Assembly (NCBI RefSeq): GCF_008039615.1
Contig: NZ_VDUZ01000002.1
Span: forward strand, 1-64,000
From: Vineibacter terrae
GTDB taxonomy: Bacteria; Pseudomonadota; Alphaproteobacteria; Reyranellales; Reyranellaceae
DNA: 64,000 nt
Direction of reading: 5' to 3'
Each line of letters opens with the position of its first letter. Positions within the stretch are counted from its first letter, which is position 1. This document shows, in pieces, positions 5,987-12,815 of the stretch. The notes below the pieces were generated by a model that was not told where the DNA came from, ran no database searches, and saw only the letters and a program-made list of their open reading frames with translations. The position numbers were made by a program, and so were the translations under genes.

Positions 5987-6499
5987 TCAGTCCGGCAGCA
6001 TGATGCCCTTGAGCTCGAGGCGTGACACCTTCACGCCCCACGCATCGGCGGCCGGCTCGACGCCTTGCAACAGGGCCACATTGACGGCAGCGCGGTCGGT
6101 CGCGAGTTCCGCGATCGTGCGGGTCGCCGTGACATCCCGCATGTGCGTGCCGACCAACTGGATGAGCGCGGGTTGCAGGTCGGCCACCTCGTAGGTGGCT
6201 TTCACGGCATCAACGATCCGGTAGCCCAGGACCGCGCCGGCTTCGACCTCGGCATTGTCTCGGGTGGTCGCGCGCTGCGGCGGCACGTCCAGCGCCGTCT
6301 CCCGCATGTCGAGCCTGGCGCCGATCCGTTCCACGATCGGCACGACGAAATGAAGTCCCGGCGTCAGCACGCGGTTGAACCGGCCCAGGCGCTCGACCGT
6401 CCAGTTTGCTTCCCGTGGCACTTTCGTGAAGCTGGCCCGCAGCAATACGATGGCCAGCACGACGATGACGGCGATGGCGAGGAACCCGGTCAAGTCCAT
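5987..6499 (-). CDS. short SPFH/Band 7 domain protein
   Basis: A 170-residue protein with one N-terminal membrane helix (about residues 5-22) followed by an SPFH domain (FTKVPREANWTVERLGRF to KVSRLELKGIM). Stomatin/QmcA relatives run to about 250-330 residues with a C-terminal coiled coil used for oligomerisation. Here a TGA stop follows LPD immediately after the core domain. A strong Shine-Dalgarno sequence (GGGAGGGAG) precedes the ATG. There is no obvious continuation in another frame downstream, so this is either a genuinely short form or an old truncation. It may act as a membrane-microdomain scaffold, though without the coiled coil assembly would differ. Confidence 0.8.
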   Translation of the reverse strand: MDLTGFLAIAVIVVLAIVLLRASFTKVPREANWTVERLGRFNRVLTPGLHFVVPIVERIGARLDMRETALDVPPQRATTRDNAEVEAGAVLGYRIVDAVKATYEVADLQPALIQLVGTHMRDVTATRTIAELATDRAAVNVALLQGVEPAADAWGVKVSRLELKGIMLPD

Positions 6500-6550: not shown

Positions 6551-7693
6551 TCACACCAGGCGATCCAGCTCCTTCACGATCGCATCACCCATCTCCTGGG
6601 TGCCGACCTTCTTGAGCCCTTTGGCCGCGGCGGCCTTGTCGTCGAGACCGCCCGTCAGCAGGTCGGCGGTACGGTAGCCGGCCGCCAGCACGTTCTCGAC
6701 GGCGCGCTCGACGAGGTCGGCCTCGCTCGACAGGTCGAACGAGTAGCGCAGCATCATGGCGTAGCTCATCGTCTCGGCCAGCGGATTGGCGATGCCTTTG
6801 CCCGCGATGTCGGGCGCGCTGCCGTGGATCGGCTCGTAGAGCGCCTTGCGCCGGCCCGTGGCGTCGGGCGCGCCCAGCGAGGCCGACGGCAGCATGCCCA
6901 GCGATCCGGTCAGCATCGAGGCCTCGTCCGACAGGATGTCGCCGAACAGGTTGTCGGTGACGATGACGTCAAACTGGTGCGGCCAGCGCAGCAGCTGCAT
7001 GGCCAGCGCATCGGCATACATGTGGCTGAGCTGCACGTCGCCGTAGCTCTCCTTGTGCAGCTTCGTGGCCTCATCGCGCCACAGCACGCCGGTGTGCATG
7101 ACGTTGGCCTTCTCGGCCGAGCAGACCTTGTTCTGGCGCTTGCGGGCGAGCTCGAAGGCCACGGCGCAGACGCGGCGGATCTCGCCCGAGGTGTAGCGTT
7201 GCGTGTCGACGCCCTCGCGCTCGCCGTTGGGCAGGGTCTTGATGCCGCGCGGCTCGCCGAAATACACGCCCGACGTGAGCTCGCGGATGATCATGATGTC
7301 GAGGCCCTTGACGATCTCGGGCTTGAGCGTCGAGGCGTCGACCAGGGCATCGAACACCTTCGCCGGCCGCAGGTTGGCGAAGAGGTCCATCTCCTTGCGC
7401 AGGCGCAGCAGGCCGCGCTCCGGCTTCTTCTCGAACGGCAGCGTGTCCCACTTCGGACCGCCGACCGAGCCGAACAGCACGGCATCCGCCTCCAGGGCAG
7501 CCTTGACCGTGTCGTCGCTCACCGGCAGCCCGTGCTTATCGAGCGCGGCGCCGCCGACCGCATCTTCCTTGATGTCGAAGCCGACAGCGCGTTTCTTGCC
7601 CATCCAGGCGATGACCTTGCGCACCTCGTTCATCACCTCGGGCCCGATGCCGTCGCCCGGCAAGACCAGGAGCGTGCGGTTGGAATCGGCCAT
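6551..7693 (-). CDS. leuB: 3-isopropylmalate dehydrogenase
   Basis: A 380-residue cytosolic NAD-dependent enzyme that oxidises and decarboxylates 3-isopropylmalate in leucine biosynthesis. It shows the isocitrate/isopropylmalate dehydrogenase signature ([26 protein letters not shown]) and the substrate-binding region FANLRPAK with [14 protein letters not shown]. The length is normal for the family. GGAGG lies ahead of the ATG. It lies downstream of leuD on the same strand, separated by a hairpin; leuC is further upstream across the RDD/AIM24 cluster. Confidence 0.97.
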
Positions 7694-7774: not shown

Positions 7775-8389
7775 TCAGCGGCTCATCGACAGCCAGGGCT
7801 GCGCCGATTTATGCGCCGACTCGTAGGTATCGATCGCCGGCGCCGCCTGCAGCGTCTGGCCGATGTCGTCGAGGCCCTCGAGCAGGCACTGCTTGCGGAA
7901 CGGATCGATGTCGAACTTCACGGTGCCGCCGTCCGGCCCCTTGATCTCCTGGTTCACGAGATCGACGGTGATGATCGCGTTGGCGCCGCGCTCGGCGTCG
8001 TCCATCAGCTTGGCGATGTCTTCCTTGGGCAGCTTGATCGGCAGGATGCCGTTCTTGAAGCAGTTGTTGTAGAAGATGTCGGCGAAGCTCTCGCTGATGA
8101 CGCAGCGGATGCCGAAATCGAGCAGCGCCCAGGGCGCATGCTCGCGGCTGGAGCCGCAGCCGAAATTGGGGCCGGCGACGAGGATCTTGGCGCTCTGATA
8201 GGCCGGGCGGTCGAGCACGAAATCGAGCTTCTTGCCGTCGGCCGAATAGCGCATCTCGTAGAACAGGCCGTCCTTCAGACCGGTACGCTTGATGGTCTTC
8301 AGGAACTGCTTGGGAATGATCATGTCGGTGTCGACGTTGACGATCGGCAGCGGCGCTGCCACGCCTGTCAGTGTCGTGAACTTGTCCAT
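7775..8389 (-). CDS. leuD: 3-isopropylmalate dehydratase small subunit
   Basis: A 204-residue swivelling-domain subunit that pairs with LeuC to isomerise 2- to 3-isopropylmalate. Family signatures are [14 protein letters not shown] near the N-terminus and the motif [14 protein letters not shown], with [18 protein letters not shown] after it. The length is typical. A GGAGCG ribosome site precedes the ATG. It is separated from leuC by four genes of unrelated function but keeps the same direction. Confidence 0.97.
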
Positions 8390-8443: not shown

Positions 8444-8965
8444 TCAAGGCGCGGCGACGGGTGGCTCCGATGCCGATTCGGCCGGTGTCGGCTGCGCCGC
8501 GGCCATCGCCACCCGCGCCCCGGCCCACTGGTCGTGCAGCGCCTGGCGCCAGCCCGTGCGCGGCAGCCACAACAGGCAGGCCGGCGCCACCAGCCATGCG
8601 ATCAGGCTGAACAGCGGTGTGCCCAGGACCGGCGTCAGGACGGCGACCAGGGTGGCGCCCCAGAACGGCAAGGTACGCACCACCGCCCGCTCGACCGACA
8701 GGCGCTCGCCGGCCAGCGTGCCGACGGCCAGGCCCAGCCAGCGCTTGCCCAGGGTGGCGCGCCAGCGCGAGGATTCGAGGCCGGCGCGGTAGACCAGGTC
8801 GAGCAGCGCCACCAGCAGCGCCGCGACCGGCGTCAGGCTGCCCTTGTCGCCGGTGAGCCAGATGATCAGCAGCGTCGGCGGGACGAGCAGCAGCGCGTCG
8901 ATCACGCCGGCCGCGAGCCGCCGCCAGACGACGGCAGGAATGGAAAGGGAGCGCCCGCCGGCCAC
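8444..8965 (-). CDS. RDD family membrane protein (RDD-1)
   Basis: A 173-residue protein with an RDD-type arrangement: an N-terminal segment (WRRLAAGVIDALLLVPPTLLII) containing the first membrane helix, a second helix around residues 45-60, the loop TLGKRWLGLAVGTLAGERLS that is diagnostic of the family, and a third hydrophobic stretch (about 115-140). RDD proteins are small integral membrane proteins of mostly unknown role. The GTG start lies 6 nt downstream of the stop of the AIM24 gene, so the two are probably translationally coupled. Unlike its two paralogues nearby it lacks a Pro-rich N-terminal tail; instead its C-terminus is Ala/Pro-rich. Confidence 0.85.
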   Translation of the reverse strand: MAGGRSLSIPAVVWRRLAAGVIDALLLVPPTLLIIWLTGDKGSLTPVAALLVALLDLVYRAGLESSRWRATLGKRWLGLAVGTLAGERLSVERAVVRTLPFWGATLVAVLTPVLGTPLFSLIAWLVAPACLLWLPRTGWRQALHDQWAGARVAMAAAQPTPAESASEPPVAAP

Positions 8966-8971
8966 CTGACC

Positions 8972-9871
8972 CTAGCGGTTGTCGCCGTCGAACAGATTGC
9001 CGAGGCCACCGAGCACGCTGCCCTCCTCGCGGCTGCTGCCGCCCATGCGCTGCGGCGCCGCCGCGAAGACGCGCGATGCCAGGCGCGAGAACGGCAGGCT
9101 CTGCAGCCATACCGTGCCGGGCCCCATGACCCGGGCGAAGAAGATGCCCTCGCCGCCGAACAGCGCCGTCTTGATGTTGCCGACATACTGGATGTCGAAC
9201 TGGATGCTGGGCGTCAGCGCCACCAGGCATCCCGTGTCCACGAACAGCATCTCGCCGGCCGCCAGCTCGCGCCGCATGATGGCGCCGCTGCTGTGGACGA
9301 ACGCCAGCCCGTCGCCCTCCAGCTTCTGCATGATGAAGCCTTCGCCGCCGAAGAAGCCGACGCCGAGCTTCTGCTGGAAGTAGATGCCCAGCTGCACGCC
9401 GCGCGCAGCGCACAGGAAGGCATCCTTCTGGCAGATGAGCATGCCGCCCAGCTGGCGCAGGTCCATCGGGATGATGGTGCCGGGATAGGGCGCGGCGAAG
9501 GCGATGACCCGCTTGTGCGGCGACTGGTTGGTGTAGACGGTCGTGAACAGCGACTCGCCGGTCAGCAGGCGCTTGCCCGCCCCGACCAGCTTGTCGAAGA
9601 AGCCGCCCGACGCGGTCTTGCGGCCGTCGCCGAACACCGCCTCCATGCCGATGCCGGCATCCATGTACATCAGGCTGCCGGCCTCGCCGACCGCAGCCTC
9701 GCCGGGATCGAGCTCGACCTCGACATACTGCATCTCCTGGCCGTGGATGCGGTAGTCGATGACATCCATGCCAGCGCCCGAGCCGGGCGGTGGCGCGCCC
9801 CATTGCGGCGCCGGCGCGCCCGGTGGCGGCGCTGGCGGCTGGCCGCCCGATGGCGGGATCCACGACGGCAT
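8972..9871 (-). CDS. AIM24/TIGR00266 family protein with Pro-rich N-terminus
   Basis: A 299-residue protein. The first 35 residues are Pro/Gly/Ala-rich ([22 protein letters not shown]), then an AIM24 domain runs from about residue 36 ([20 protein letters not shown]) to about 270, ending with a Ser/Gly/Asp-rich tail. AIM24-like domains form a beta-rich fold and occur in bacteria and in a mitochondrial inner-membrane organising factor. The biochemical role is unknown. AGGAGGAG precedes the ATG. It is followed at 6 nt by an RDD gene and preceded by two more RDD genes, suggesting a shared envelope function. Confidence 0.88.
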
Positions 9872-9906
9872 GAAGCTCCTCCTGACCAGATGCCGGCGCC
9901 GGGCGG

Positions 9907-9933
9907 CAAAAGGGCCGACGCTCGGCCGGCCCT
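9907..9933 (-). terminator. Rho-independent terminator after RDD-2
   Basis: On the minus strand a 7-bp stem AGGGCCG/CGGCCCT with a 9-nt loop is followed directly by TTTT. It lies about 28 nt beyond the stop of the 235-residue RDD gene and upstream of the AIM24 gene, dividing the cluster into two transcription units or setting up partial read-through. Confidence 0.55.
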
Positions 9934-9960
9934 CGTGCTACGGCGTCGCGGCGGCCGTAC

Positions 9961-10668
9961 CTATTTCTTGATCACGACGGTGTCGGCGATCATGTCGTGC
10001 AGCGCCCGCTTGCGGTCGGTGAACCCGGCCATCATGAAGCCGATGCCGAACGGGATGATGCCGGTGATGAACGCCTTGGCGAAGAACCGACCGGTGGCGC
10101 GGCCGAACGACAGCCGCGAGCCGTCGGTGCCGCGCACCACCCGCATGCCCATGGCACGCTTGCCGATCGTGCCGCCGGCGGCGGAGCTGGTCATCATCGC
10201 CTCGTAGAGCCAGACGGCCACGAATATCAGCAGATAGACGATGATGAACACGCCGGCGCTGGCCACGGCGGCCGCCGCGATCTCCTGCTCGTCGCCCGAC
10301 GACATCGCGCCCGACAGCGTGGTGGCGAACACGATGCCGATGACGATCACCATCGGGATGCCGATGATGAAGCCGTCGATCAGGTAGGCGGCGACACGGA
10401 CCCAGAAGCCGCAGAAGACGACGCCGGCCGGCGCGCCGGCATAGCCTGGCGGCGCGTAGCCCGGCGGCGGGTAGCCGGGCGGCTGGCCGTAGCCCGGATG
10501 CGGCGGTGCCGGCGGATAGCCCGGCGGCTGGCCATAACCTTGCGGTGGCTGGCCATAGCCCTGCTGCGGCTGACCGTAGCCCGGATGTGGCGGAGCCGGC
10601 GGATAGCCGCCCGGCTGCTGCCCCTGCTGCTGCTGCCATGTCGGCGGCTGCGGTCCCTGGTTGCTCAT
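9961..10668 (-). CDS. RDD family membrane protein with PPGY-rich tail (RDD-2)
   Basis: A 235-residue protein. Residues 1 to about 85 are a low-complexity tail built from repeated GYGQPP / PGYPPAPPHPGYGQ units. Next comes the RDD domain: FCGFWVRVAAYLIDGFIIGI (first helix), a second helix near VFIIVYLLIFVAVWLYEAMM, then GGTIGKRAMGMRVVRG, SFGRATGRFFAKAF and the C-terminal DRKRALHDMIADTVVIKK. The frame is open further upstream, but the ATG at 10668 is preceded by GGGGAGAA and gives a natural MSNQGPQPP start. The C-terminal 20 residues are nearly identical to those of the neighbouring RDD-3, so the two are recent duplicates or under common constraint. Confidence 0.87.
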   Translation of the reverse strand: MSNQGPQPPTWQQQQGQQPGGYPPAPPHPGYGQPQQGYGQPPQGYGQPPGYPPAPPHPGYGQPPGYPPPGYAPPGYAGAPAGVVFCGFWVRVAAYLIDGFIIGIPMVIVIGIVFATTLSGAMSSGDEQEIAAAAVASAGVFIIVYLLIFVAVWLYEAMMTSSAAGGTIGKRAMGMRVVRGTDGSRLSFGRATGRFFAKAFITGIIPFGIGFMMAGFTDRKRALHDMIADTVVIKK

Positions 10669-10711
10669 GTGACTTGTTCTCCCCTTATGGGCCGGCGGCA
10701 TCGCACGGCTG

Positions 10712-11254
10712 TCATCCCTTGATCACCACCGTATCGGCGATCATGTCGTGCAGCGCCCGCTTGCGGTCGGTGAATGCCGCCATGATGTAGCCGATCATGA
10801 GGATGATGCCCGAGATGATCTTGGCGAAGAACCGGCCTGTCGCGCGCCCGAAGCTCAGGCGCGCGCCATCGCTGCACAGCACGCGCAGCCCCAGGGCGCG
10901 CTTGCCGAGCGTGGCCGAAGCCGCCGAGCTCTCCTGCAGCGCGAAGTACAGCCACGCCAGCACGATGCCCAGGATGCCCATGACCAGCTGCATGGCCTGG
11001 GCGTCCCTGCCGCCGCCGAAGCCGATTGCGAGGCCGACGATGAAGCCCAGTATGTATGCTGCGATGTTCACGACGATCGCGTCGATGATGTAGGCAACGA
11101 AGCGCAACCAGAAGCCGGCATAGACGGGCCCCTGCATCGGCGCCTGGCCATACGGACTATAGCCTGGCGGGTTCGGATAGCCGGACGCCGGACCACCGGG
11201 GTAGCCGGGCGGAGGTGGCGGTGGTGGCGGCGGCGAAGGATACTGGTTGGCCAT
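10712..11254 (-). CDS. RDD family membrane protein with polyproline tail (RDD-3)
   Basis: A 180-residue protein. The N-terminus is a run of prolines followed by GYPGGPASGYPNPPGYSPYGQ. The RDD domain follows (YAGFWLRFVAYIIDAIVVNIAAYILGF; ATLGKRALGLRV; SFGRATGRFFAKIISGII; C-terminal DRKRALHDMIADTVVIKG). Start ATG 11254 has GGGGAGAT just upstream. It is 43 bp upstream of RDD-2 on the same strand. Its paralogy with RDD-2 is obvious from the domain and the matching C-termini. Function is unknown; RDD proteins have been proposed to take part in small-molecule or ion transport. Confidence 0.87.
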   Translation of the reverse strand: MANQYPSPPPPPPPPPGYPGGPASGYPNPPGYSPYGQAPMQGPVYAGFWLRFVAYIIDAIVVNIAAYILGFIVGLAIGFGGGRDAQAMQLVMGILGIVLAWLYFALQESSAASATLGKRALGLRVLCSDGARLSFGRATGRFFAKIISGIILMIGYIMAAFTDRKRALHDMIADTVVIKG

Positions 11255-11360: not shown

Positions 11361-12815
11361 TCAGCGAAAATCACGCACGTCCGTGAAAGTACCGGCGATC
11401 GCCGCCGCCGCCGCCATGCCGGGGCTGACCAGATGCGTGCGTCCGCCGCGTCCCTGCCGGCCCTCGAAGTTGCGGTTCGAGGTCGAGGCGCAGCGCTCGC
11501 CGGGCTGCAGCTTGTCGGCGTTCATCGCCAGGCACATCGAGCAGCCCGGCTCGCGCCAGTCGAAGCCGGCCTCGACGAAGACCTTGTCGAGGCCTTCCCG
11601 CTCGGCCTGCTCCTTCACCAAGCCCGAGCCCGGCACGATCATGGCGTGCACGTGGTCGGCCACCTTGCGGCCCTTGGCCAGGGCGGCGCGGGCGATCGCC
11701 GCGACCTCGCGCAGGTCCTCGATGCGGCCGTTGGTGCACGAGCCGATGAAGGCCTTGTCGATGCGGATGTCGGTCATGCGTGTGCCGGGCGTCAGCCCCA
11801 TGTAGTCCAGCGACCGGGCCCAGGCGCTGCGCCGATCATCGTCCGGCGCCTCATCGGGGTTGGGCACGACGCCGGTGATCGGCACCACGTCCTGCGGGCT
11901 GGTGCCCCAGGTGAGCTGCGGCGTGATGTCGGCGGCCGGGATCACGATCTCCTTGTCGTAGACCGCGTCCTTGTCCGACGGCAGCCGGCGCCAGACGCCC
12001 AGCGCCACCTGCCAGGCGCCGCCCTTGGGCGCATAGGGCCGGCCTTCGATGTAGCGGAACGTCTCCTCGTCGGGCGCGATCAGGCCGGCACGGGCACCGC
12101 CCTCAATGGACATGTTGCAGACCGTCATGCGGCCTTCCATCGACAGGTTGCGGATGGCGCGGCCGGCATACTCGATGACATGGCCGGTGCCGCCGGCCGT
12201 GCCGATCGTGCCGATGATGTTGAGGATCAGATCCTTGGCCGTCACGCCCGGCAGCAGATCGCCATCGACCGTGATGCGCATGTTCTTGGCCGGCTGCTGG
12301 ATCAGCGTCTGCGTCGCCAGCACGTGCTCGACCTCGGACGTGCCGATGCCGAAGGCCAGCGCCCCGAAGGCGCCGTGCGTGGAGGTGTGGCTGTCGCCGC
12401 AGACGATGGTCATGCCCGGCAGGGTCAGGCCCTGCTCCGGCCCGATGATGTGCACGATGCCCTGGCGGATGTCGTCCATGGCGAAGTAGGGCACGCCGAA
12501 CTCGCGCACATTGGCTTCCAGCGTCTCGATCTGGATGCGCGACTCCTCGTCGTCGATGCCGGCGGCGCGATTGGTGGTCGGCACGTTGTGGTCGGCGACG
12601 GCGACGGTGAGATCCGGACGGCGCACCCGGCGGCCGTTGGCGCGCAGCCCTTCGAACGCCTGCGGGCTGGTCACCTCGTGCACGAGGTGGCGATCGATGT
12701 AGATCAGGCACGAGCCGTCGTCGCGGCGCTCCACGACGTGGGCATCCCAGATCTTGTCGAACAGCGTGCGCGGCTTTGCCGGCTCGACCGGTGCCGCCGT
12801 CGGCTTCCTCGCCAT
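11361..12815 (-). CDS. leuC: 3-isopropylmalate dehydratase large subunit
   Basis: A 484-residue aconitase-family catalytic subunit that carries a 4Fe-4S cluster and acts with LeuD in leucine biosynthesis. Visible motifs include [35 protein letters not shown] (first cluster Cys) and GCSMCLAMN (the C-x2-C pair of the cluster). The length is close to the bacterial norm (about 470). A GGAGGGA site precedes the ATG. It is the last gene on the strand before an inverted-repeat element that separates it from rplS. Confidence 0.97.

Follow-up and report, generated by a model that had tools for sequence, protein, structure and literature searches.

What has brought three RDD genes and one AIM24 gene together between leuC and leuD of Vineibacter terrae, and could the Pro-rich N-terminal tails of three of their products mark these as parts of one membrane assembly? 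We analyzed a window of 64,000 nucleotides (the whole stretch at positions 1 to 64,000 of contig NZ_VDUZ01000002.1), in which a Pfam scan placed four minus-strand genes, RDD1, RDD2, AIM24, and RDD3, in the leuC-leuD interval (Table 1). The first-pass annotation of this DNA had described four same-strand genes here: two RDD genes encoding long PPGY/polyproline N-termini, an AIM24 gene encoding a Pro/Gly-rich N-terminus and a third RDD gene 6 nt from AIM24. Each of these features was borne out, the gene identities by PF06271 scores of 94.3, 93.3, and 70.9 bits for the three RDD genes (curated cut-off 24.1) and a PF01987 score of 237.1 bits for AIM24 (curated cut-off 25.7). The near-identical C-termini it had noted in RDD1 and RDD2 are likewise confirmed, with 19 residues and 56 of 63 nt alike, and we attribute this likeness to the conservation of the domain end across RDD proteins of the bacterial family. 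The intergenic gaps are 106 nt (leuC-RDD1), 43 nt (RDD1-RDD2), 89 nt (RDD2-AIM24), 6 nt (AIM24-RDD3), and 54 nt (RDD3-leuD). By eye, purine-rich stretches resembling ribosome-binding sites lie upstream of RDD1, RDD2, and AIM24 in the window, and such a stretch also precedes AIM24 in two other genomes of the genus (G001 and G002). A search of the V. terrae genome (8.76 Mb, 135 contigs) at E ≤ 0.001 found three RDD genes and one AIM24 gene, all of them in the leu cluster.

Table 1. Coordinates of the genes and the AIM24 tail in the leu cluster of the window.
Feature	Coordinates	Strand	Evidence and remarks
leuC, upstream neighbor	11361-12815	-	PF00330 1.9e-184
RDD1	10712-11254	-	PF06271 1e-26; ATG with GGGAG-type stretch upstream; 44-residue poly-Pro/PGY N-terminal tail; membrane protein
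RDD2	9961-10668	-	PF06271 2e-26; ATG start; ~84-residue Pro/Gly/Gln/Tyr tail; membrane protein
AIM24, whole gene (299 aa)	8972-9871	-	PF01987 2e-70; TIGR00266 4.3e-29
AIM24 N-terminal Pro/Gly-rich tail (residues 1-34)	9770-9871	-	AGGAGG before ATG
RDD3, no N-terminal tail	8444-8965	-	PF06271 1.7e-19; GTG start 6 nt after AIM24
leuD, downstream neighbor	7775-8389	-	PF00694 1.9e-40
leuB	6551-7693	-	PF00180 9.7e-135

RDD has a long history in the leu cluster of the bacterial family. An RDD match was present in 32 of the 33 other family genomes, and leuC and leuD flank one or more RDD genes in 26 of the 27 neighborhoods fetched from these RDD-positive genomes, the exception (L016, genome G004) being an RDD3-like gene that adjoins leuD close to the contig start. 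RDD1 orthologs occupy the same position in the three other genus genomes. Of the four genus genomes searched, G000 and G002 have RDD3, which was not found in G001 or G003; G002 also has additional RDD matches at other places.

RDD1, RDD2, and RDD3 match PF06271 across almost the whole domain length, and in an alignment of 17 rows that includes RDD1 and RDD3 three residues are invariant (numbered as in the RDD2 protein plus one): R92 and D99, the conserved Arg and Asp of the first membrane helix, and D226, a later Asp. A 2025 analysis states that the role of RDD proteins is unknown and infers a cytoplasm-facing binding site within the membrane (PMC12419801). Another study reports Na+(Li+,K+)/H+ antiport by one family member, from Halobacillus andaensis, an activity that needs R124, R129, D154, and D158 (PMC5996927). 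The three proteins of the window have the same domain as that protein, but RDD1 and RDD2 differ from it in their long charge-free Pro-rich tails, and their genes are located in the leu cluster. By analogy, the RDD proteins might be small cation/proton antiporters to which AIM24 is unrelated, and RDD1 and RDD2 do retain the LHDxxxD end and the RxxxxR stretch, which would correspond to the residues needed in the Halobacillus protein. However, the antiporter report is a single one from a single species (PMC5996927), RDD3 has no second Asp in LHDxxxD, and the AIM24 tail would be left unexplained, so that we consider this explanation very improbable. The RDD2 structure model gave no fold match at E up to 0.001, and a sequence search with E up to 1 found no solved relative of RDD2.

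The history of AIM24 is a different one. The gene is present in all four genus genomes and in none of the 33 other genomes of the bacterial family, and its closest relatives outside the genus, among the best 80 listed, belong to Burkholderiales and other Betaproteobacteria with up to 80% identity, as against 40-63% identity to 29 other alphaproteobacterial proteins. When 112 proteins were placed in a tree, the genus AIM24 sequences fell inside a set of 37 rows, most of them betaproteobacterial (SH-aLRT 97). A second tree, of 54 of the 112 rows picked after seeing the first and with alphaproteobacterial L005 and L060 counted as "other," joins them to 19 betaproteobacterial rows (97/96) and rejects (AU p 0.00115) their union in a single clade with 15 alphaproteobacterial rows. 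Because AIM24 is restricted to the genus within the bacterial family and groups with Betaproteobacteria, these calculations suggest that it was probably acquired from the latter. A profile built from the window AIM24 domain, which forms its first row, and its relatives matched the solved structures 1yox (6.3e-112) and 1pg6 (4.2e-29). The window protein thus has a full-length domain match in common with the AIM24 family (PF01987; PA3696, structure 1yox; yeast Aim24), and differs from it in being a bacterial protein encoded beside RDD genes and in carrying a Pro-rich tail missing from all of its clade relatives. Yeast Aim24 is reported to interact with MICOS, and cardiolipin composition is altered when an aim24 deletion is combined with certain tagged MICOS subunits (PMC3975624). 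It is this yeast protein on which the inner-membrane role of AIM24 is based.

None of the 33 clade relatives that make up the rest of the 37-row set has a Pro-rich tail; all 33 have the motif (M/V)xMDV(V/I)D(Y/F) at window AIM24 residues 33-40 and a start at the position equivalent to residues 33-35. One of them has eight residues with four Pro and no Met upstream ahead of the motif, and no long Pro-rich stretch occurs in any. Among the 78 non-genus AIM24 proteins with the domain motif, a single one (L124) reaches 0.25 Pro in the 34 residues ahead of the domain, and its Pro-rich stretch is a linker following a GYF_2 domain. The tails themselves are exceptional in composition. There is not a single K, R, D, or E in those of RDD1 (44 aa), RDD2 (84 aa), and AIM24 (34 aa), and that of RDD2 has PPGY repeats and a PPTW close to its start. 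We compared the Pro fraction of the first 35 residues across 388 called genes from 464 kb of the genome (20 stretches of 20 kb on contigs C1 and C3-C21, plus the window), each gene being assigned its most Pro-rich ATG start, and RDD1 (0.46), AIM24 (0.37), and RDD2 (0.29) are the top three, the next gene having 0.26. When starts were called that trim the AIM24 and RDD1 tails, RDD2 alone exceeded 0.25 Pro. High G+C is an unlikely source of the tails, as the remaining 385 sampled genes reach a maximum of 0.26 Pro. Since RDD1 and RDD2 are paralogs, the three tails represent at most two independent events, with AIM24 the independent one.

Comparison of the four genus genomes gave tail dN/dS values of 0.22 for AIM24, 0.11 for RDD2, and 0.17 for RDD1, against 0.12, 0.27, and 0.30, respectively, outside the tails. 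The tails therefore appear to be under constraint, with these values counting as support only, because alignment of low-complexity sequence favors low values. Structure models were obtained for RDD2 (17 sequences, mean pLDDT 74, with block means of 42-57 in the tail and 70-95 in the domain) and for AIM24 (seven sequences, one of them a 70-residue piece, mean pLDDT 68), and in both the tail is low-confidence and nearly structureless. Loop 1 of RDD2 has no basic and three acidic residues and loop 2 has five basic and one acidic. Under the positive-inside rule the charge bias of loops indicates the cytosolic side, and by this rule the loop charges favor a cytosolic tail. The RDD tails are thus probably cytosolic and disordered. 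A possibility to be weighed here is that the tails are generic disordered linkers of separate origin, each of use to its own protein only, for instance in spacing or solubility, with no mutual contact. This would suit the variation in tail length from species to species and a tail similarity that does not go clearly beyond composition. It fits poorly with the occurrence of the three most extreme tails of the genome sample in consecutive genes, and with residues 1-17 of the AIM24 tail, which are almost fixed across the four genus genomes, and we regard it as improbable.

Short Pro-Trp motifs recur in these tails. At least two Pro followed by any one residue and Trp, or else PP(S/T)W, occur ahead of the domain in 34 of 43 leu-locus RDD proteins, rising to 38 of 43 with P.P.W allowed, one of which (L024) is probably spurious and lies in an unlikely upstream extension. 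The 43 proteins come from 30 loci, three of them from the genus, with the window, two fragments of less than 120 aa and, as lying outside the leu locus, the L050 and L051 proteins left out of the count. The AIM24 tail retains P-x-P-Q-W in all four genus genomes, as judged by eye. In such Pro-rich sequence the sharing of Pro-Trp motifs is weak evidence by itself. The possibility that the AIM24 tail was copied from an RDD gene is unsupported, its similarity being not reliably above that of shuffled tails. Between 16 and 250 of 500 shuffled AIM24 tails reached the real score against RDD2, and between 59 and 221 of 500 did so against RDD1; because shuffles match the score this often, a common origin of the AIM24 and RDD tails is not established. 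GYF domains bind Pro-rich ligands, and a GYF_2 protein was considered as a possible reader of the tails in Vineibacter. This idea is unsupported, as none was found in the four genus genomes (G000-G003); 14 control genomes also had none, and the same search matched 13 of 22 genomes.

The first-pass annotation had described the set as a membrane module whose shared low-complexity tails may mediate assembly into one envelope complex, an idea that confinement of the cluster to one strain, or random placement of the two genes in relatives, was to count against. The cluster extends beyond this strain, as AIM24 adjoins tailed RDD genes in the leuC-leuD interval of all four genus genomes. Beyond the genus the two genes were not close neighbors in any of three surveys, which goes a long way against a module by the annotation's own reckoning. 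In the first, AIM24 was found in 42 of 385 genomes drawn from Alphaproteobacteria, which together with G001 and G002 makes 44, of which 40 lie outside the genus. RDD was present in 26 of the 44 (22 outside the genus, G039 below the curated cut-off), yet within 20 kb of AIM24 in none of the 40, many of these assemblies being fragmented and the nearest RDD lying at ~24 kb (G127). In the second, the flanks of AIM24 (up to 8 kb, some contigs being shorter) contained no RDD gene at any of the 79 non-genus loci among the best 80 listed, and a whole-genome search for 25 of these 79 found RDD somewhere in 21. The RDD profile recovered the known gene at six of six control loci; L016, L050, and L051 had contributed to the profile, and L043, L047, and L052 were independent (weakest 3.4e-7). 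In the third, which covered 148 genomes of another phylum centered on G442, AIM24 was found in 41 and RDD in 34 of those, with RDD within 5 kb of AIM24 in none of the 41 and one at ~8 kb (G560). On adjacency in these surveys, a general RDD-AIM24 module is therefore not supported and was rejected. G441 has an RDD match ~8 kb from AIM24, just beyond the flank, provided that L147's record is contig C2. Our literature search returned nothing that treats AIM24 together with RDD.

How, then, should the genus-wide linkage be read? Our preferred, and still tentative, explanation is that an acquired AIM24 gained a tail similar to those of its neighbors and thereby joined a resident RDD membrane assembly, an assembly that we infer. 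The RDD gene family had long been resident between leuC and leuD, with most of its proteins carrying Pro-rich tails, when a betaproteobacterial-type AIM24 would have entered the same interval in the genus ancestor and acquired its own Pro-rich, charge-free tail. The tails may then bring AIM24 to the RDD proteins on the cytosolic side of the cytoplasmic membrane. They could do so by binding one another through weak multivalent contacts, or a partner common to them could recognize Pro-Trp or PPGY motifs, and the outcome could be a small assembly that organizes the membrane or handles lipids or ions. In favor of such recruitment, the N-terminus of AIM24 looks like an adaptor position, because other add-ons occur there elsewhere: a scan of 81 AIM24 proteins (the 80 best-listed loci and the window) found GYF_2 on 16 and a zinc ribbon on one. 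Counting against such recruitment are RDD3, the nearest gene to AIM24, which is tailless and missing in two of the four genus genomes, the non-adjacency outside the genus, the want of a GYF_2 reader within it, and G003, where by eye no clear ribosome-binding site precedes the tailed AIM24 start.

The chief competing explanation treats the leuC-leuD gap as no more than a permissive site, such that RDD persists there and AIM24 and other genes land by chance, sharing co-transcription at most. The interval may just tolerate insertions, because in six relatives with long gaps other open frames occur between leuC and leuD (by eye TM2-like, exonuclease-III-like, host-attachment-like, and nitroreductase-like); the separation of AIM24 and RDD in the other genomes surveyed and the probable acquisition of AIM24 are also what chance arrival would give. 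Chance arrival accounts less well for the maintenance of AIM24 in place in all four genus genomes and for a tail that resembles those of its neighbors in composition, given how few genes of the genome sample encode one of this kind. We hold this rival to be possible but doubtful. A transferred AIM24 with an RDD-like tail provides a concrete, testable link between two widespread families for which functional knowledge is thin, and the case bears on the ability of disordered Pro-rich tails to target a soluble protein to a bacterial membrane assembly.

A broader reading, which we think unlikely, is that a low-complexity tail serves as a code by which a protein is admitted to a membrane assembly, with other lineages using GYF_2 at the same AIM24 and RDD positions. 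As deduced from neighboring match positions, GYF_2 lies ahead of AIM24 in 11 of the 44 AIM24-bearing alphaproteobacterial genomes (G039, G068, G087, G109, G160, G211, G225, G282, G306, G319, and G361, the last below the cut-off) and ahead of RDD in three of the 44 (G211 twice, G253, and G306, the last below the cut-off). Both AIM24 and RDD bear GYF_2 in G211 and G306, which belong to one family, and the AIM24 of G253 has a weak GYF_2 match only (E 0.0026). The overlap between these GYF_2-AIM24 and GYF_2-RDD genomes is too small for an association to be claimed. These fusions have an N-terminal add-on in common with the Vineibacter proteins, but theirs is a GYF_2 domain on non-adjacent genes, whereas the genus has a Pro-rich tail and no GYF_2 that we could find.

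The interval between leuC and leuD looks like a site of gene gain, because further open frames are present in the gap in four other family members (L019, L023, L026, and L040). By eye, some of these frames resemble exonuclease III, a host-attachment-type protein, and a nitroreductase. The gaps of two family members, L031 and L033, hold small TM2-like membrane proteins, which by eye also carry a short Pro-rich N-terminus.

Coordinates of the individual features described in this section
Feature	Sequence	Positions	Strand	Remarks
Short SPFH/Band 7 protein, 170 aa	window	5987-6499	-	directly after leuB
RDD3	window	8444-8965	-	
Small TM2-like membrane protein	L031	7548-7970		by eye
Small TM2-like membrane protein	L033	7905-8279		by eye
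AIM24 protein with zinc-ribbon-like N-terminal stretch	L146	4891-5814		by eye

Within the window, RDD1 and RDD2 retain the C-terminal LHDxxxD end, and RDD3 is without its second Asp. The SPFH/Band 7 gene has the same distribution as RDD3 among the four genus genomes compared, both being present in the window's own genome and in G002 and neither being found in G001 or G003.

Among AIM24 loci outside the genus, L101, from a record titled as a Klebsiella pneumoniae MAG, encodes an AIM24 of betaproteobacterial type, which may reflect a binning or labelling error. By eye, the AIM24 protein of L146 has a zinc-ribbon-like N-terminal stretch, and the domain scan of 81 AIM24 proteins (80 loci and the window) gave a single zinc-ribbon member.
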